Origin: Bacteroidota bacterium
Lineage (GTDB): Bacteria; Bacteroidota; Ignavibacteria; UBA10030; BY39
DNA: 35,884 nucleotides
Reading direction: 5' to 3'
Assembly (NCBI GenBank): GCA_030682385.1
Contig: JAUXOG010000113.1
Location: 1-35,884, forward strand
The translations under genes were made by a program, and so were the position numbers. Positions 4,654-17,085 of this stretch are shown here, one piece after another (within the stretch, counting starts at the first letter, position 1; every line of letters begins with the position of its first letter). The notes below the pieces were generated by a model. It was not told where the DNA came from. It saw only the letters and a program-made list of their open reading frames with translations, and searched no databases.

Positions 4654-7600
4654 TTATCGGAGTAAAATCATTTTCTTCACTTGCACAAACGATTTACTTG
4701 GATCGTTTACACTTGTTGCTTCAAGTCTGTAAAAATAAACACCTGATGCAACTGCATTTCCGACATTATTCCTTGAATCCCATTGTGCTGTTTGATATCC
4801 TGCAACTTGAATATCATCCACAAGCGTCTTTACTTCTTGACCAAGTACGTTGTAAATTCTAATCGCGACTTTACTCTCAACTGGTAACTGATAATGAATA
4901 ACGGTTGTTGGATTGAAGGGATTGGGATAGTTTTGTTCGAGTGCAAAGGTTTTGGGTAAATCAACAAAACCACTCAGCTTAAGAACAATGTGCGATGTGC
5001 GATGTGCGATTTGAGAATTGCCACTTGAGCGCAAAGGAATTTCCTTATCATCAATTCTCAGATAAGCTGTAATATCCTTCTGTTTCAGTTCCCAATGTAT
5101 TTTTATTGGATATTCTGGTGAAGATAAACTAATAGGATATTCCTGTGTCTTTCCGCTGTCGACTGCTTCTAACATCCGATTTGAAGCAAAGCGTGCATCG
5201 AAGATACCAACAGGAGACAAAGGTGGCATTTCATAAAAATCTAATGAGAAATCTCCATTTGGTTTCTTTCCAAAAAATAATTTCTGCTCATTACCATTTG
5301 CATCAATTATGGTTAATGAATTGAATTCATTTAATAAATTTTCAGATGCAATTAGCTTTGCTGTCTTACCAACTCCATCCGAATATAAAAACAATTTACC
5401 ATCCAGATTTACTTTTATCCAGTAACCTTTACCGGGTTGGATTGTATCAGTTATAAAGTATCCTGACTTATAACCATAAAATTGCGACCTAATAATACCA
5501 GGAGGTTCCGTTGTAATTGATGAAGTGGCTACTGGATTGCTTATTGAGCCAATCATATTCCAACCAGATGAAACATTTATGCTATCTTCCGAAATAATCA
5601 AGCCATCCATTGGGATCGATTGGGAAGAGGAAAACTTCAACCAATAACCAACGCCATTTTTGAGTGTATCTCTAATAACATAGCTCCCTTGATAAGTAAA
5701 GGCGCTCGATTGAGCCGTTGGAAAAAGAGAAGTCTTTCTATAATCCGAAACCACTAATGGCACGGATATCATATTCCAGCCTTTGAAATAACTAAATGAG
5801 TCTACCTTTGTACTATGTATCGGACAAACCGGCATGCTTTCGACCATTGCATCAATCAAATGCATTCCTGTTGTCGCCGGGTCTGCCTCCCACTCATACA
5901 TCACCTCGGACATCCACGGACAATCGGCCATTAACGGAGTTGAATCTAATACGCAAACCGGTCGATTGCCATTCGGGTCCAGTGTAAGAAAATGGAAGTC
6001 ATCACCACCTAATCCAAAACTATTTGTCCACCCTGCAATCGCATACCCGCCATTAAATGTTTGAATCATTGGATAAGCTTCTTCAGATTTTGCACCTGGT
6101 ATACTCGGATGAACTCTTGACCATATAACTGAACCATTAGAACTGTTCAGTTTCATAATCAAGAAATTGGGATTTTGCGGCGCTCCAGGACCTCTACTAT
6201 AAGTCCATCCAGAAACCGCATAATTACCATCATTCGTCACAATCAGAGATTTATCATCCATAACTTTTTCTTCTTTCTCCCAACCATAAACATTGCTCCA
6301 AATTGGGGGGCCGGGTGTAGATGGAAATTTTGCGACGAAAATATTGGCAGTATCAAGCGCACCTGGACCATAAGTTCCAGTCCAACCCGCGACTTCAATG
6401 TTTCCATCAAAAGTGACCGAATAGGCCTCGTCATCTTTTGGTCCATACAAAACTTGGGTCCCAAGAAGATTGCCCATCGTATCTAAATACATTAGGAAGG
6501 CATCCCAATTGGGATCATACGTACAATAAAACCTTCCAACCACCGCATAGCCTCCTGGAATCTCAATTATACCGTACCCTTCATCTATGTGTGAGAGGAC
6601 TTGCCGGGCGTACGCTTTTGCCCACTGAACATCACCATTTGAGAATAATTTTATGACAATAATATTGGGAAATGGTTCCTCACCAAAACTATTGGTCCAA
6701 CCGGTCAGTGCATAACCGCCATCGCCCGTTTGAATTATTGAATATGCTTGATCATCTTGCAATCCACTATAGACTCTTCCCCATTGGAGATTTAAATTTA
6801 CATCCAGTTTTAGCACAAAAATGTCTGAACCACCGGCTCCATAACTTCTGGTCCAACCAGTTACGGCATACCCACCATCGGTAGTTGTAACCATTGAATA
6901 GGCTTGATCTGCCAGACCCCCAACTGAAATCTTTGCTGGACTCACTAGATTACCAGCACTGTCAATTCTAACGATTAGAACATTTGTGTTACCCGGCGTT
7001 GTAAAAGCAGTTGTCCAACCTGCAAGAACATATCCAAAGTCGGACGATTGAACTAAGGCAAAAGCCCGTTCTGACAAGTCTGTGCCATAAGTTCGACAAG
7101 GTAGATTCGCTCCGGGTTGTGGTGCAAACTGTAGAGCGCTTTGGACGTTTGGAAGCGGACCGATATTCTGGGTAGCTGGATACGTTCCCGATTGCTGCGG
7201 TGAGCCAGTATTATTTAGAATCGAGCGCATAGTTAGCGGTGATATTGTCTGACTCGGATAGAGATATTCAAAGCGGCTTTCAACGAGAGCAACTGCAGCA
7301 GCAACAATTGGCGAAGCACTTGATGTACCACCAAAAGTATCGGTATACCTGAGATTAATTCCTTCAGCGTTATAAAGGTCCTCATACCCGGTCGTCCTCA
7401 CGCATTCACCCCACCCTTGAAGGTCAACACGTGAACCATAGTTAGAAAACCAAAGCCGCGAGCGGTTCGTATCGCTACCACCAAATGCAGCTGGTGCAGC
7501 ACCTGCCCCTACAATGATTGCTCCGGAATTGTTTTGAGGCAAGAAGGGCCAATTACCATTATTACCTGTGCTATAAATTGGGTCATCCAAATTTTGCTCA

Positions 7601-8766
7601 CCATTGCCCGCTGCCGCAACTACATGAATACCATTACCTACTGCAGTAAGGATGACATTATACCATGATTGCCACCATTCAACTGGAATGCAGCCAAACT
7701 GCGAAGTGCCGCCTGGCCATCTTGGTCCACCGAACTGTTGCTCAATTAGAATAACATCACCCGGAACCATATTAGATATAGCATAAGTCATCGCTGTGCC
7801 CAAACTCCAAACGTTATTCAAGTATGTTGGTGCTACTGTCGCTGTCGCCCCATAAACTGCACCAGTAGTACCCCAACCGTTATTGAGACTTACAATTTGT
7901 CCAAGTACTGCGGTGCCATGATTATTGTCATTATATGGATCAGAAGCTGTATAACCAGACGGTATCCATGTGGCGATATTAGTAGGCAAATCTTGATGAT
8001 TCAAATTCCAGGAATATTCTAGGTCGCATATCGTCGTGTTTGTACCGGTTCCCCCAGGCAATGTCCAAGCATAAGAAGCGTCAATACCATCAGTAGCTGG
8101 ATTCAAATAACCTTGAAGACCTTGGTAATTAGGAGGGAGAGGAGGTGGCGTGGGAAGAGGTAACGGCAGTGCTATTTCTACCTCAGGCAGAGCATTCAGT
8201 TTGTCAATCCATACCTTGATACTCACTCCCTTTGGCACAGTGAGTATAAAATAGTTATTTAAGTTCGCTATTGCCCGTCCTAATTTCATCTCCGCAACTG
8301 CGCGTAGTGAATTTATTTTTTCCTCAGGTGCGCCAGCCATACGTTTCCATCTCCCTCCAGCTTGAGAAATGTTTTCAAAAAGAGAAATTACTTGGTTGAA
8401 TTTTAGAGATTTTGCCATTCGATCTACAGGGTAACCCTTAGTACCTATTTCGATACTGAGATTATCCAGAAACTTTACCTCAATGGCGTTAGGGTCGTCT
8501 CCGGGTTTAATAGAATACGATTTAGGTTTTTGGGGCAACTCCCGTGGTGTAATTGTTAGGGGTGTTCGATCTGGATTTGTTACACCATGTAACTGTGTAA
8601 AAGTTTCATTAAGTGGAAGCAATCCTTTTGCTTTTAGTTCCTGATACTTTTCTTCGCCGAGCCTAGCAGGAGATTGATCTGATTGTGCCATCATGATTCC
8701 GGTAGATGTTACAATCATGGTAAGCGGTAATACAATTGCTAAAATTTTTAATCTAAGATTTTTCAT
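4654..8766 (-). CDS. T9SS-exported subtilisin-like (S8) serine protease with seven-bladed propeller region
   Basis: 1370 residues. Signal peptide about 1-28 (MKNLRLKILAIVLPLTMIVT, ending near MMAQ). Residues about 30-200 resemble a propeptide. The peptidase S8 domain (about 225-530) has catalytic D248 (ICDLEYSW), H283 (NNHGTAVLG), oxyanion N388 (AAAGNGE) and S482 (GGTSSASP). Residues about 560-930 contain seven repeats of 50-59 residues, six with a GWT core (G583, G637, G689, G794, G853, G912) and one degenerate (G744, GRFY), predicting a seven-bladed beta-propeller. Two GWNM...GYWIK modules follow (about 996-1048 and 1068-1120). The tail, FALEQNYPNPFNPTTVIHYQ onward (1274-1370), is a type A T9SS sorting domain. 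The start is supported by GGAGG at 8771-8775. The gene should be secreted or surface-attached; its protein substrate is unknown. A 7-bp repeat lies inside the coding region (4988-5010). Confidence 0.95.
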   Translation of the reverse strand: MKNLRLKILAIVLPLTMIVTSTGIMMAQSDQSPARLGEEKYQELKAKGLLPLNETFTQLHGVTNPDRTPLTITPRELPQKPKSYSIKPGDDPNAIEVKFLDNLSIEIGTKGYPVDRMAKSLKFNQVISLFENISQAGGRWKRMAGAPEEKINSLRAVAEMKLGRAIANLNNYFILTVPKGVSIKVWIDKLNALPEVEIALPLPLPTPPPLPPNYQGLQGYLNPATDGIDASYAWTLPGGTGTNTTICDLEYSWNLNHQDLPTNIATWIPSGYTASDPYNDNNHGTAVLGQIVSLNNGWGTTGAVYGATATVAPTYLNNVWSLGTAMTYAISNMVPGDVILIEQQFGGPRWPGGTSQFGCIPVEWWQSWYNVILTAVGNGIHVVAAAGNGEQNLDDPIYSTGNNGNWPFLPQNNSGAIIVGAGAAPAAFGGSDTNRSRLWFSNYGSRVDLQGWGECVRTTGYEDLYNAEGINLRYTDTFGGTSSASPIVAAAVALVESRFEYLYPSQTISPLTMRSILNNTGSPQQSGTYPATQNIGPLPNVQSALQFAPQPGANLPCRTYGTDLSERAFALVQSSDFGYVLAGWTTAFTTPGNTNVLIVRIDSAGNLVSPAKISVGGLADQAYSMVTTTDGGYAVTGWTRSYGAGGSDIFVLKLDVNLNLQWGRVYSGLQDDQAYSIIQTGDGGYALTGWTNSFGEEPFPNIIVIKLFSNGDVQWAKAYARQVLSHIDEGYGIIEIPGGYAVVGRFYCTYDPNWDAFLMYLDTMGNLLGTQVLYGPKDDEAYSVTFDGNIEVAGWTGTYGPGALDTANIFVAKFPSTPGPPIWSNVYGWEKEEKVMDDKSLIVTNDGNYAVSGWTYSRGPGAPQNPNFLIMKLNSSNGSVIWSRVHPSIPGAKSEEAYPMIQTFNGGYAIAGWTNSFGLGGDDFHFLTLDPNGNRPVCVLDSTPLMADCPWMSEVMYEWEADPATTGMHLIDAMVESMPVCPIHSTKVDSFSYFKGWNMISVPLVVSDYRKTSLFPTAQSSAFTYQGSYVIRDTLKNGVGYWLKFSSSQSIPMDGLIISEDSINVSSGWNMIGSISNPVATSSITTEPPGIIRSQFYGYKSGYFITDTIQPGKGYWIKVNLDGKLFLYSDGVGKTAKLIASENLLNEFNSLTIIDANGNEQKLFFGKKPNGDFSLDFYEMPPLSPVGIFDARFASNRMLEAVDSGKTQEYPISLSSPEYPIKIHWELKQKDITAYLRIDDKEIPLRSSGNSQIAHRTSHIVLKLSGFVDLPKTFALEQNYPNPFNPTTVIHYQLPVESKVAIRIYNVLGQEVKTLVDDIQVAGYQTAQWDSRNNVGNAVASGVYFYRLEATSVNDPSKSFVQVKKMILLR
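4988..5010. repeat. In-gene heptamer repeat (ATGTGCG x3.3)
   Basis: Three consecutive perfect copies of ATGTGCG plus AT, inside the protease coding region near residues 1253-1260 (IAHRTSHI), between the second GWNM module and the sorting domain. The unit is not a multiple of three, so gain or loss of one copy would shift the frame before the sorting signal. Confidence 0.8.
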
Positions 8767-11907: not shown

Positions 11908-13188
11908 TCAATTATTACCACCATCAAGTTCTGCAACAACACTCCTCGCTACGTTTTTTAATTCAGCCCTGCTCGAATAATAGTATATTTTAACAAATTC
12001 TAATTCCGATAAAACATTTTCACCGTCTGCGGAACTCAAACCAAGATTTCGGTTTACTATCAAAATTAAATTTCTATCTCTGAGCAGTTTTATCTTCTCA
12101 ATTTTCCTTTGCAAGTATTCTTCACGCCAATATCCTACGATTTCAATTAATATTTGTTCTTGTTTATTTCGGTTTTGTAGTACAAAATCGGGTATGAAAA
12201 AACCGTTATGCTTCCCTACTTCCGACTTTAACGGAATAATTGTCCCCTCGTAACTTACATCCAGATCAGAACTGTATTTTGTTATGTAACGCATAAATGC
12301 TTCTTCGTCGGAAGACTTAAACTGCTCGGTAACATCCCGCTTACTAGCGAATAACTCACTCATCGAATTGTCGAGTAAAACTGTTTCGATATTCTCACTC
12401 TTCGTTTTCGCTAACTTTTGATTGAGAATATCAACATGGACTTTCCAAGAACACAAAGTTTCCTGAACGAGCATCTCAATTAACTGTGCTAATCGATTTC
12501 CATAAATCGTAGTGTGCATAAACAAACCATAAGGACCTGTAACATTAAAGACAATATCATTACCAATTTGCACCGCATCATACATTAAATGGCATTTCTT
12601 GAGCGACCATATTATACTTGTATATGGTGAATTCTTTTCAGTAAAAACAGGAATGATTAATTTCAATCCGATGGATTTTCGTAACTTCCACTTTAACCGC
12701 CGGCTGTTGATCGCCCTGATTATGCTGCCCGGATCAGCCGCATTTAACTCCGGTTTTATCTTTAGCAATTTTTCTTCCGGAATATCGGCAAAAAATAATT
12801 TCTCAACAATTTTAGGTTCAAGATTGAAATAATTTTCGGCATTGCCGAATATTTCATCTGAAGTCGGCATAAACAACCCACTCGCGGATGTAATAAAACC
12901 CTGTCCTTTATCCCATAAAGATGAGAAAATATATTTCCGAATATCTGCGGGTGATAAGTTATTCGGTAACTCATTTTCAAAACTTTCTGATATATATTCA
13001 GCAATTTCACGGCGCAACTTCCGTATAGATTCTTTCTTTTCGGAAATATTTATCCCCTCAATCTCCTCGGTTACTTCACGTAGGGGTTTGCCGACAAAGT
13101 CTTTTAGCTCCCGGAAAATTTGATCAACTTCCTCACACAACTGTTGATCGTTCGGGTCTAAAATCCATTTAGGTATTTTTTGTTTCAT
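11908..13188 (-). CDS. DUF790/Bax1-like nuclease, partner of the XPB-like helicase
   Basis: 426 residues from the ATG at 13188 (MKQKIPKWILDP); an in-frame ATG at 13209 would add seven residues (MLAIKLI), and neither start has a Shine-Dalgarno. The C-terminal part carries a PD-(D/E)xK-like nuclease core: FFIPDFVLQNR, then ILIEIVGYWREEYLQRKIEK with a lysine about eight residues on. The EIVGYW...Y...K pattern is characteristic of DUF790, whose archaeal members are Bax1, a nuclease that binds the helicase XPB. The N-terminal and middle regions (IRKYIFSSLWDKGQGFITSA, GPYGLF) fit the family more loosely. The XPB-like helicase lies immediately upstream on the same strand. A DNA-repair role by cutting DNA opened by the helicase is inferred from the archaeal system. 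A repeat element now separates the two genes. Confidence 0.8.
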   Translation of the reverse strand: MKQKIPKWILDPNDQQLCEEVDQIFRELKDFVGKPLREVTEEIEGINISEKKESIRKLRREIAEYISESFENELPNNLSPADIRKYIFSSLWDKGQGFITSASGLFMPTSDEIFGNAENYFNLEPKIVEKLFFADIPEEKLLKIKPELNAADPGSIIRAINSRRLKWKLRKSIGLKLIIPVFTEKNSPYTSIIWSLKKCHLMYDAVQIGNDIVFNVTGPYGLFMHTTIYGNRLAQLIEMLVQETLCSWKVHVDILNQKLAKTKSENIETVLLDNSMSELFASKRDVTEQFKSSDEEAFMRYITKYSSDLDVSYEGTIIPLKSEVGKHNGFFIPDFVLQNRNKQEQILIEIVGYWREEYLQRKIEKIKLLRDRNLILIVNRNLGLSSADGENVLSELEFVKIYYYSSRAELKNVARSVVAELDGGNN

Positions 13189-13300
13189 TATTAATTTAAT
13201 TGCTAACAAAAACCGTTGAAACAGTTAACCGCATCATGTTTGTTGTTTATCGTCCCACGACTGAAGAAGCTGCGTGATAATACCGAACTCACCCTAAATC

Positions 13301-13336
13301 CCCGCCTGCTTCAGCGAATTCGCAGAGGCGGGCAGG
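13301..13336. repeat. GC-rich palindrome, CCCGCC/GGCGGG family, copy 1 in the element
   Basis: CCCGCCTGC at 13301-13309 faces GGCGGGCAGG at 13327-13336. It seems to interrupt an otherwise continuous CCCTAAATCCC...CTCTCTTA sequence, suggesting a nested insertion. Confidence 0.7.
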
Positions 13337-13461
13337 CCTCTCTTACAAAGAGAGGGACTTGCTGAATCTGCGACTAATTTTCCCGAGGTTGACTAATAAG
13401 TTCTCTCGTTACTCGATTTCTACGAAATCGAACTCGAGAACCTGCTTATTTAGCCGGTTTT

Positions 13462-13498
13462 CCCGCCTGCTTTAATGCTTCTAACTTCGGCGGGCAGG
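13462..13498. repeat. GC-rich palindrome, CCCGCC/GGCGGG family, copy 2 in the element
   Basis: CCCGCCTGC at 13462-13470 faces GGCGGGCAGG at 13489-13498, with the same ends as the copy at 13301-13336 but a different loop. Confidence 0.7.
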
Positions 13499-13577
13499 CG
13501 AGTGTTCGAGAAGCGAACGTATCGAGAAAACCTACTTTTGAGACAGCCCCGGTCTGGGGGATGAGTTCCGATAGTTA

Positions 13578-14957
13578 TCACGACCTCTGAAGTCGTGGGT
13601 TAAATTTAGTCGGAAGTGCAAAAGATATTTCGTAAACTAATGCTTGCTTACCTTTCCGTTTACGCAACACACGTCCACGCCGCTGTATATAGCTGATCGT
13701 TTCCACCTTACTGCTTTTTCTTCCAGCAATAATAACAGCGATATTTGCTTCTGGCAGGTCGATGCCTTCTTCCAACGCTTTGGCAGTAACAAGTGCCTTG
13801 CATCTGCCTTTGGTAAAAGCATCAAGATAAAATGTACGTTCATCCGATTCTATATCTGCTGTAATGGCTGGTATTAAAAAGCGTTTTGAAATTTCGTAAG
13901 CTGCGGAACGGCTTTCAGTAAAAATTAAAATCCTGTCGTCTTGGTGTTTTTGTAAAATTTCTTCTAACCGTGCAAGGCGGCTCGGTATTGATTGCCAATA
14001 TCTGTAAGCACGCAACAGAGACCTTTGGGCAAGGTCAACATCGTCCGGATAATAATGGCGTTCACGAACAAGCCAACTGCTGTCCTGTATTCTGTGTTCT
14101 GCTTTTGCACGATACCAAACTTTTTCAATCGGTTTACGAATGTCATAGTAAGTTTCAATTTCATTTTTCGTCGACTTTAAATGAACGGATATTCTCCGGT
14201 AAACAGATAATATTTCATTTTCAATCATCTCATCAGTAGCTTTTTCATAAACTATTGGACCGATTAAATCACTTAGCAGATCAAGCGCACTGCTGACCGG
14301 AGTTGCTGTTAGTGCAAGTCGATACGGCGAAATACAGAACCTCGCCGCATTAGCTGATTTACCTTCAGATAATTTCTTATGAATCTCGTCGAACACAACA
14401 AGTTTCCACCGGTTGCCGAAACTCGCCATATAAATCTGGGCGCTTTTATAAGTTGTAACCGTGATAGGTTTAGGATTAAAAATATCGTCGCCGATAATTC
14501 CGATGTCCTGCTGAAAAGCAGTCCGCAATTGTTCATACCATTGATAAACTAGTACTCTTGTCGGTACGACTACAAGAACAGAACACTTTGCATCTTCGAT
14601 AGCTAAACGAGCTATCAATAAACGAGTCATAAAACTTTTGCCGGCACCCGTTGGTAAGACAACCATTCCTCTCTTATCGGTTTTTTCCCAAGCTTCGATT
14701 GCTTGTATTTGGAAATCGAATGGGTCAAGCGGCTCGCTGTGAATAAAATTTGGGATTTCATAATATTGTGCTGCCTTGTCCTCAATAGCTATCCCGTTTT
14801 CTTCGCAATATTTTAAAACTTCAGAATATTTATATGCGGGCGAGATGAAATAATTAAGCGGGTGCTGTTTAAAGAATTTAGATATTAAATCTTTATCTGC
14901 TTCTCCTCTTAGTTGAAGCATTCCTTCGTAGAATGTAAGTGTGGGGAGATTATTCAT
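13578..14957 (-). CDS. XPB/Rad25-like superfamily 2 DNA helicase
   Basis: 459 residues. An N-terminal damage-recognition-like region (about 1-70) is followed by the helicase core. Q-motif-like PFDFQIQAIEAW is at 79-90. Walker A is PTGAGKS (102-108), motif Ia VVVPTRVLVYQWYEQL, motif II DEIH (190-193), motif III LTATP (216-220), motif IV-like ILIFTESRSAAYEI (343-356), motif V TAKALEEGIDLPEA, and motif VI YIQRRGRVLRKRKGK (423-437). This matches the short archaeal/bacterial XPB helicases, 3'-5' DNA translocases in repair. The adjacent DUF790/Bax1-like gene strengthens the call. The last ten residues (TKFNPRLQRS) and the stop are encoded by a hairpin repeat (13579-13597), so the natural C-terminus has been replaced or extended. 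The start is 55 bp after the TPR gene. Biochemical function is inferred. Confidence 0.88.
   Translation of the reverse strand: MNNLPTLTFYEGMLQLRGEADKDLISKFFKQHPLNYFISPAYKYSEVLKYCEENGIAIEDKAAQYYEIPNFIHSEPLDPFDFQIQAIEAWEKTDKRGMVVLPTGAGKSFMTRLLIARLAIEDAKCSVLVVVPTRVLVYQWYEQLRTAFQQDIGIIGDDIFNPKPITVTTYKSAQIYMASFGNRWKLVVFDEIHKKLSEGKSANAARFCISPYRLALTATPVSSALDLLSDLIGPIVYEKATDEMIENEILSVYRRISVHLKSTKNEIETYYDIRKPIEKVWYRAKAEHRIQDSSWLVRERHYYPDDVDLAQRSLLRAYRYWQSIPSRLARLEEILQKHQDDRILIFTESRSAAYEISKRFLIPAITADIESDERTFYLDAFTKGRCKALVTAKALEEGIDLPEANIAVIIAGRKSSKVETISYIQRRGRVLRKRKGKQALVYEISFALPTKFNPRLQRS
13579..13597 (-). repeat. Hairpin encoding the helicase C-terminus
   Basis: CACGAC at 13579-13584 pairs with GTCGTG at 13592-13597. 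It lies in the right terminus of the composite element and overlaps the last codons and stop of the helicase gene. No T-run follows on the minus strand, so it is not a classical terminator. Confidence 0.7.
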
Positions 14958-15012
14958 TATAACTTCATGGCAATTACATCGATACTTTTTTGAATTTTAG
15001 AAAGGCAATCAA

Positions 15013-15585
15013 TCAACCTTTCATAAACGATTCATACGTGCTTCTTATAAACTCGTTCTGTGGGTTGAGTTCTAACGCTTTTTCGAACCAATGTTTAGCT
15101 TTTTGTGGCGACTTAACTTTGCTTACCACGTAACTTACAGCCATATCGTTGTACGCAAGACTGTTAGTCGGGTCTATCTTTATTGCTTTGTTTAAAAATT
15201 TTCTGCCTTTAGCTAATTCGCCAATCATACAAAGCATCCAGCCAAGATTACGGTTAATTTCCGTGTGATTAGGTTCCAACTTGTCGGCAATTTTTAAATG
15301 GTGGATAGCACGCTGGAAGTTCATCGTTCTTCCTAAGGCGCAGCCGAGCAAGTAATAGCTTTGGTAAAAATCAGGTTTATAGTTTACAGCTTTTTCGAGC
15401 GGGTCGATTGCCAAAACAGGCGAACCGAGATGCAAGTACATATCTCCGATAAAACAAAGAACTGGAACAAAATCAGGATATTCCTTTATCAATTCCTCCG
15501 CCATTTCCACAGCCCCTATAAAATCACCGCTATCGGCAAGCGATGCGGCTTTCATCATTACATCATTTATTTTTTCTTGAGACAT
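15013..15585 (-). CDS. TPR-repeat protein
   Basis: 190 residues from the ATG at 15585 (MSQEKINDVMMKAASLADSG). The longer frame to 15633 would overlap the upstream gene by 41 bp and adds an unlikely leader. About four to five tetratricopeptide repeats follow, for example YLHLGSPVLAIDPLEKAVNY, GRTMNFQRAIHHLKIADKLE and NKAIKIDPTNSLAYNDMAVS, each with the usual small and aromatic positions. There is no signal peptide, so it is cytoplasmic. TPRs mediate protein-protein contacts. Its position, 7 bp after the Myb-repeat gene and 55 bp before the XPB-like helicase, suggests an adaptor role in that cluster, but no partner can be named. Confidence 0.88.
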   Translation of the reverse strand: MSQEKINDVMMKAASLADSGDFIGAVEMAEELIKEYPDFVPVLCFIGDMYLHLGSPVLAIDPLEKAVNYKPDFYQSYYLLGCALGRTMNFQRAIHHLKIADKLEPNHTEINRNLGWMLCMIGELAKGRKFLNKAIKIDPTNSLAYNDMAVSYVVSKVKSPQKAKHWFEKALELNPQNEFIRSTYESFMKG

Positions 15586-15592
15586 AAGATAT

Positions 15593-16330
15593 TTAATTTT
15601 TGTTTCCTTTATGGAAGCCGTGCCTGTTTGCATAATGTTGGACCGAACTTTCAGTAACGTCTAATTTTTGTGCGATATCTTTGTACGACATTTTTTTATA
15701 ATTCTTTTTCAAAAAAGCGTGCATCTCATTTGTCCATTTATTGAGCCATGGTCTCTTTAATTTTAACTTGAAAGCTTTCTTCCAAATACTCAGCTCCGAT
15801 CGGTTCAGAATCTTTTCTATCTCTTTCACCGATACATTAGGATCCTGAAACATCTTGATTAATGTTTGAGTCTCCTCCTCCGTCCAACGTGCCGCCGCTG
15901 GTTTTGTAATACCTAATTTTTGAGCTTTAATGAGGACGCCATCTTTTGACCGACTGAGAGTACGACTTATTGAAACATTTGATTTTTTTCCATGATGTCG
16001 AATAAGGTAACGTATTTCCCAATCAGCCCACTTGCGAAAGTCATCCCTTCTCAAACCTAAGCGGATTGCTTTAGTGCGTACACTATCTTGCGTGCGATTA
16101 ACTCGAGCCGCGATATACGGAGAACCTCGCTTCGGGTAATATTTTTTTAGAAGCAATAACTCTTCTTCCGACCAACTATCCGGTTTCGAGAATTTAATTT
16201 GAAGCTGCATCGCTTTCATTCTGACAGCGTGCACAGAGCGACTAATATTTTGTGCGACGAAAGTTGCGCCGTTTTTAGGATAATTCGCTTTCAGAAACTC
16301 AATCTGTGAATCAGTCCAAATATTTTTCAT
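15593..16330 (-). CDS. Protein of five tandem Myb/SANT-like repeats
   Basis: 245 residues from the ATG at 16330, which overlaps the permease stop by ATGA. It is made almost entirely of five units of about 45-50 residues, each opening with a tryptophan and an acidic/polar stretch and closing with an S(V/I)..KA..L.L recognition-helix-like segment: IWTDSQIEFLKANYPKNG, SWSEEELLLLKKYYPKRG, KWADWEIRYLIRHHGKKS, RWTEEETQTLIKMFQDPN and KWTNEMHAFLKKNYKKMS. The second half of each (for example YIAARVNRTQDSVRTKAIRL) has helix-turn-helix spacing. The protein is very basic, with no signal peptide or other domain. Sequence-specific DNA binding is the likely role; the target is unknown. Single and double Myb-like units are common in bacteria, five in tandem are not. 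Confidence 0.82.
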   Translation of the reverse strand: MKNIWTDSQIEFLKANYPKNGATFVAQNISRSVHAVRMKAMQLQIKFSKPDSWSEEELLLLKKYYPKRGSPYIAARVNRTQDSVRTKAIRLGLRRDDFRKWADWEIRYLIRHHGKKSNVSISRTLSRSKDGVLIKAQKLGITKPAAARWTEEETQTLIKMFQDPNVSVKEIEKILNRSELSIWKKAFKLKLKRPWLNKWTNEMHAFLKKNYKKMSYKDIAQKLDVTESSVQHYANRHGFHKGNKN

Positions 16331-17085
16331 AACCATAAATCCTTAATTATTTTTAAACCTGCAATTAATAATACTGCACCTAACATTCTTTGCAAAACAT
16401 CGGGTTGAAATTTAAACGCACCTAAACGTGAACCGATTTGCCCGGCTATTAATACCACAATACCGAAAATCAAAGCTATATCGAAATGAATAGGAGCGCT
16501 GAGTGATTTTGCCACTAAGGCGCTTAACGAATTCAAAATAATAAATGCCGCCGATACAGCAGCGGTTTTTTTAGCATCCGCCCAACCGGTAAGCAAGAGG
16601 AACGGACTTAAAAATATTCCACCTCCGACACCTGTAATACCCGAAAGAATTCCGATTACAAAACCAATGGGAATTCCCCAGTAAAATGCCTTGCCCGAAT
16701 ATTCCTGCCAACGCGTTCCGATCCTGTTTTTCACAAACAACAATCGTCCTGCCGCTAATAATAATACCGACCCTAATATAATTGTAAACGCAAGCGATGA
16801 AACTTTCAAAAGTCCACCGACAAAAGCCGCCGGTATAGAGCTAATTATAAAAGGAATTAAAAGCTGATACGAAAAATGTTTTGCCCGATAATAATTTATA
16901 AAACTACTGCCGGCTACTAAAATATTTAACACTAAAACAACGGGGGCAATCTCGGAACGGGCAACACCGGCAAGGGCAAACAACGCCAGATAACCCGATG
17001 CACCACCATGACCGACGCTCGAATATAAAAACGCCATCAAAAAAAATAATGGGATTATTTCCCAAGGAATTTGTAACTCAACCAA
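16327..17085 (-). CDS. TSUP-family permease (TauE/SafE-like)
   Basis: 252 residues, about eight predicted membrane segments in two related halves, each opening with a glycine-rich motif: YSSVGHGGASGYLALFAL near residues 21-38 and ILSGITGVGGGIFLSPFLLL near 146-165. This is the TauE/SafE (DUF81) signature of permeases for sulfite, organosulfonates or other small anions across the inner membrane; the substrate is not readable. The start is TTG at 17085, since the first in-frame ATG would cut into the first membrane segment. The stop overlaps the Myb-repeat ATG (ATGA), so the two are co-translated. The functional link to that neighbour is unclear. Confidence 0.88.
   Translation of the reverse strand: MVELQIPWEIIPLFFLMAFLYSSVGHGGASGYLALFALAGVARSEIAPVVLVLNILVAGSSFINYYRAKHFSYQLLIPFIISSIPAAFVGGLLKVSSLAFTIILGSVLLLAAGRLLFVKNRIGTRWQEYSGKAFYWGIPIGFVIGILSGITGVGGGIFLSPFLLLTGWADAKKTAAVSAAFIILNSLSALVAKSLSAPIHFDIALIFGIVVLIAGQIGSRLGAFKFQPDVLQRMLGAVLLIAGLKIIKDLWL

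Follow-up and report, generated by a model that had tools for sequence, protein, structure and literature searches.

An XPB-like helicase and Bax1-type nuclease gene pair from a bacterium, compared with archaeal XPB-Bax1

The window (the whole 35,884-nucleotide stretch of DNA analyzed here) carries adjacent genes for a helicase and a nuclease that probably, at roughly two chances in three, make up a two-gene complex of the XPB-Bax1 type with an accessory, structure-specific role in DNA repair. This reading is based on the predicted fold, the catalytic residues, the co-occurrence of the two genes, purifying selection on both, and the shared ancestry of the branch to which they belong.

The helicase and nuclease genes

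A first-pass annotation of this DNA had described a cluster of four genes, for a Myb-like protein, a TPR protein, an SF2 helicase and a DUF790 protein. The ORF list of the window has all four on the minus strand and in that order. Features are listed below (positions in the window).

15593-16336, minus strand: Myb-like protein of five repeats (Pfam Myb/HTH); a neighbor, outside the pair
15013-15585, minus strand: TPR protein (Pfam TPR); a neighbor, outside the pair
13578-14957, minus strand: XPB-like SF2 helicase, 459 aa (Pfam ResIII, Helicase_C, ERCC3_RAD25_C, XPB_DRD)
14634-14654, minus strand: Walker A, PTGAGKS, helicase residues 102-108 (P102-G104, G106 and K107 invariant in the helicase alignment)
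14379-14390, minus strand: Walker B, DEIH, residues 190-193 (D190, E191 and H193 invariant in the helicase alignment)
14283-14300, minus strand: PVSSAL, at the place of the RED motif after LTAT; motif absent and residues deleted in the alignment with AfXPB; LTATFEREDGRH
13671-13685, minus strand: motif VI, QRRGR, residues 425-429 (sequence and helicase alignment)
13246-13580, strand not assigned: dispersed composite repeat between the helicase and nuclease genes (repeat copies in the genome)
11908-13188, minus strand: Bax1/DUF790 nuclease, 426 aa from the ATG at 13188 (Pfam DUF790, PDB, model)
12304-12306, minus strand: catalytic E295 (E275 of AfBax1), invariant in 16 members
12187-12189, minus strand: catalytic D334 of the PDF motif (D305 of AfBax1), invariant in 16 members
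12142-12144, minus strand: catalytic E349 of EIVGYW (E318 of AfBax1), invariant in 16 members

The helicase motifs PTGAGKS, DEIH and QRRGR on which the annotation had relied are all located, and the Pfam matches agree with the assignment of an SF2 helicase and a same-strand DUF790 protein (XPB_DRD, 2.3e-6; ERCC3_RAD25_C, 3.2e-9; both above cut-off). The best PDB match of the helicase is archaeal XPB (AfXPB, 6p66_A/2fwr; about 4e-66, more exactly 3.9e-66, over residues 12-444). The protein is called XPB-like because the RED motif is missing after LTAT, where the window sequence reads PVS----SALDLL and AfXPB reads FEREDGRHE. The NCBIfam XPB equivalog gives 109 bits, below its cut-off of 610; the NCBIfam phosphorothioation restriction helicase scores slightly higher (121 bits), and both lie far below cut-off.

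The DUF790 ORF is open from a TTG at 13209 (11908-13209), with the ATG at 13188 the more likely start. Its product matches Pfam DUF790 (PF05626) at 3.8e-50 (171 bits; cut-off 28.8), and in the PDB it matches Bax1 entries alone (the best being 6p66, 4.3e-18). The AlphaFold model (mean pLDDT 78) aligns over its full length with five solved Bax1 entries (Z 19.4-22.2; 357-362 residues aligned), 6p4w/6p4f leading at Z 22.2 and the next non-Bax1 structure following at Z 9.6. Profile and fold searches thus both bear out the nuclease assignment. The metal-binding acids of AfBax1 are E275, D305 and E318 (PMC7293015, in which D305A is the AfBax1 mutation). Besides their counterparts listed above, Y358 and K362, which follow E349, are invariant in the 16-member Bax1 alignment. 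Of the N-terminal residues of the second AfBax1 active site, D133 and N156 are kept by alignment, E135 is replaced by P, Y131 by F and Y155 by I. On sequence and model, then, the window Bax1 is a predicted nuclease with an intact catalytic core.

The closest known system is archaeal XPB-Bax1 (A. fulgidus, 6p66; S. tokodaii, 6p4f/6p4w/6p4o; P. furiosus Bax1, 8gy8), which has a like gene pair, an SF2 helicase with damage-recognition and thumb regions, and a Bax1 with a helical N-terminal domain, a Cas2-like central domain, a VRR-Nuc-like PD-(D/E)XK domain and the catalytic E/D/E. The window pair differs in being bacterial, in having a helicase without the RED motif, and in having a Bax1 (20-25% identical) without the N-terminal β-hairpin and the long C-terminal domain.

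DUF790 occurs in 4/294 genomes of the class, and the helicase profile selects exactly the same four: those of the window, its sister species (G141), G223 and G004. The two genes are adjacent in every one. This makes helicase and nuclease a true gene pair, and the XPB-Bax1-like pair of the first-pass annotation holds on Pfam, PDB and fold matches as well as on this perfect co-occurrence. Between the window species and G141, dN/dS is 0.12 for the helicase and 0.20 for Bax1 (an average between species, blind to any recent change), values that point to purifying selection on each of the two genes.

A contig scan gave 15 loci with an alignment as query and none with a single window protein. Beyond the class, the two genes adjoin or overlap on two Deinococcus plasmids, in two Anaerolineae and in one Polyangiaceae (Myxococcota) genome; they lie near each other in one Verrucomicrobia genome, in Natrinema and in Hermodarchaeota. 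(In one bacterial genome a deoxyhypusine synthase family gene, L007:3405-4514, adjoins XPB-Bax1.) No XPB-like gene was found beside cyanobacterial DUF790 genes in the five stretches read. The COG3372-COG1061 linkage was noted in 2005, when the family was known almost exclusively from archaea and cyanobacteria (PMC1189080).

Fork-contacting elements, repair and defense

In the ternary structure from archaea, the fork junction is contacted by the RED motif, and the hairpins have the 5' overhang between them; when alanines replace the RED motif, the archaeal complex binds DNA less well and has lower ATPase activity (PMC7672443). The four class members, which constitute a single clade with 100/100 support in both the helicase and the Bax1 tree, jointly lack both elements in sequence, an observation new here. 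The RED motif is absent in all four helicases. The N-terminal β-hairpin is absent from all four Bax1 proteins (residue 1 of the model aligns at chain residue 12), and no coding segment matching it was found in the frame upstream of the branch Bax1 genes.

The hairpin segment is present in archaeal, Deinococcus and cyanobacterial Bax1 members; at the RED position the helicase alignment has R-S-D in Deinococcus and R-P-D in Natrinema, and the helicases of Anaerolineae and Polyangiaceae, too, diverge from the motif in some positions. The Deinococcus plasmid pairs (DEAD/DEAH helicase plus DUF790; for example NZ_CP092192.1 and NZ_CP034187.1) belong to the same families, with 31-33% identity to the window helicase and about 21% to the nuclease, and their genes overlap; they differ in the R-S-D sequence, in an N-terminal MLPTELL segment and in being plasmid-borne.

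Since the branch is without RED motif and Bax1 hairpin, fork recognition by its complex should differ from that of the archaeal enzyme. A further step, that this is a distinct bacterial branch in which both fork-gripping elements were lost together and which serves on another substrate or in defense, not in excision repair of the archaeal type, is conceivable and is put forward tentatively.

The physical complex, its polarity, its substrate and its repair role we infer by analogy with the archaeal enzymes (PMC7293015, PMC7672443). The helicase would move 3' to 5', its thumb wedging open forked or bubbled DNA; Bax1 would dock on the thumb and the second motor domain, and its PD-(D/E)XK domain (E295, D334, E349) would nick an arm at the double-strand/single-strand junction. 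UvrB is present in the window bacterium, and the pair is read as accessory because UvrB is kept: its most likely role is that of a repair nuclease working alongside UvrABC, a structure-specific repair nuclease being, we infer, the most economical explanation. Against this, core repair genes do not usually have so patchy a distribution (4/294), two elements of the archaeal complex are missing, and the NCBIfam helicase scores, both far below cut-off, slightly favor the phosphorothioation restriction helicase over XPB.

The main rival, an anti-phage or anti-plasmid defense system in which a helicase-nuclease effector attacks foreign DNA, is unlikely. It owes its rank to the patchy spread in the class, to its presence on plasmids of Deinococcus (in one case close to restriction-subunit-S and N6-methylase genes) and to a genome of a sister genus in the same family (G591), which has no DUF790. 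There TauE is followed directly by a TPR gene 85% identical to that of the window, and downstream, where the window has XPB-Bax1, lies an Eco57I-family type IIG restriction-methylase (L057:60-3659, G591:C278). (The position of this restriction-methylase makes the site a possible hot spot.) Loss of the RED motif and hairpin may also signal a changed target.

The helicase core is, moreover, similar to those of the Pbe/Dnd phosphorothioation restriction helicases (PbeA, 6.9e-47, PADLOC; dnd_restrict_1, 5.6e-35, NCBIfam), but the dnd_restrict_1 match is far below the curated cut-off, the helicase's partner here is DUF790, and no phosphorothioation genes were seen near the pair. These helicase matches are generic, and PADLOC yields no credible match to Bax1. 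At none of its four loci in the class (window, G141, G223, G004) is the pair accompanied by a modification gene, a companion of a known defense system or another evident defense gene; searches of phages and of IMG/VR contigs found no copy; and the branching order of the helicase tree within the class agrees with host taxonomy.

The dispersed repeat and the neighboring genes

The annotation's account of the spacing needs one correction: in the window a dispersed repeat separates the helicase gene from the nuclease gene and widens the gap to 389 bp, against -1, 7 or 105 bp in relatives (7 bp in G141). The ~335 bp segment between the helicase stop and Bax1 has 26 matches within this genome, partial or whole, is absent at the same place in G141, and substitutes for the helicase's final residues. 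Its insertion may uncouple Bax1 translation. That the pair is decaying or non-functional, disrupted by this insertion, is nevertheless most improbable: the replaced helicase tail varies between species anyway, both ORFs are open, the catalytic residues are kept, and dN/dS is low (0.12-0.20).

Scarcely any likelihood attaches to the four-gene module, in which the Myb-like protein would find the sequence, the TPR protein act as adaptor, and helicase and nuclease process the DNA; synteny across genera refutes it as a conserved unit. The annotation's description of the two proteins preceding the helicase was accurate. ORFs and Pfam support both, and the Myb-like protein has, by eye, five Trp-anchored repeats of ~48 residues, modeled by AlphaFold as five helical repeats (mean pLDDT 84); a fold search with this model gives weak matches (the best being SNAPc, a spliceosome subunit and Reb1), which do not warrant a specific assignment. 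The four genes do stand in tight same-strand order in both the window and G141, an arrangement stable in the genus (2 genomes), and all four are under purifying selection. The whole stretch, however, is one long minus-strand gene run, which includes TauE and a TonB receptor, so that adjacency says little. (Elsewhere in the window, at 4654-8766, is a 1370-aa secreted subtilisin-like protein with repeats and, by eye, a C-terminal sorting-type domain.)

Outside this one genus the linkage disappears, the Myb-like and TPR genes being placed independently of XPB and occurring without XPB-Bax1, as the annotation's own proposal for refuting the link had envisaged. G223 and G004 lack a Myb gene beside their pair, and in G223 the best Myb relative is found on a separate contig, flanked by a MacB-like permease and uvrB. 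The Myb profile finds nothing near the ten pair loci read outside the genus, 8 of them outside the class; in the lineages read outside the genus, XPB-Bax1 has neither a Myb relative nor a TPR orthologue next to it. G591 carries TauE-TPR but neither Myb nor Bax1. In G121 and G154 the flanking anchors are retained (TauE on one side, a 177-aa lipoprotein and the TonB receptor on the other), with ~16 kb of unrelated genes between them. A TPR protein near XPB-Bax1 in G223, considered as a second instance, was left uncounted because it carries a DUF6398 domain and its TPR similarity is no more than generic, and because TPR candidates are abundant in every genome (11-54 per genome of the order on a first look, 4 in one genome). 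Multi-repeat Myb-like proteins are themselves multi-copy in the order; in three genomes one copy lies between the MacB-like permease and uvrB, and in the window genome it follows the permease.

The locus thus differs in content from one sister genus to another. Most simply, an older TauE-TPR neighborhood would have come to be flanked by Myb and XPB-Bax1; alternatively, Myb and XPB-Bax1 may have been lost in relatives. The Myb and TPR genes are unrelated neighbors, outside the XPB-Bax1 system, and the tempting four-gene module is a local neighborhood rather than a conserved system.

The bacterial pair and the XPB-Bax1 family

The biochemistry of XPB-Bax1 is archaeal; bacterial copies are known by sequence and are unstudied in searchable papers, where no repair or defense function for them was found. 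A bacterial pair without RED motif and hairpin amounts to a natural experiment that bears on what fork recognition and cutting require of the complex.
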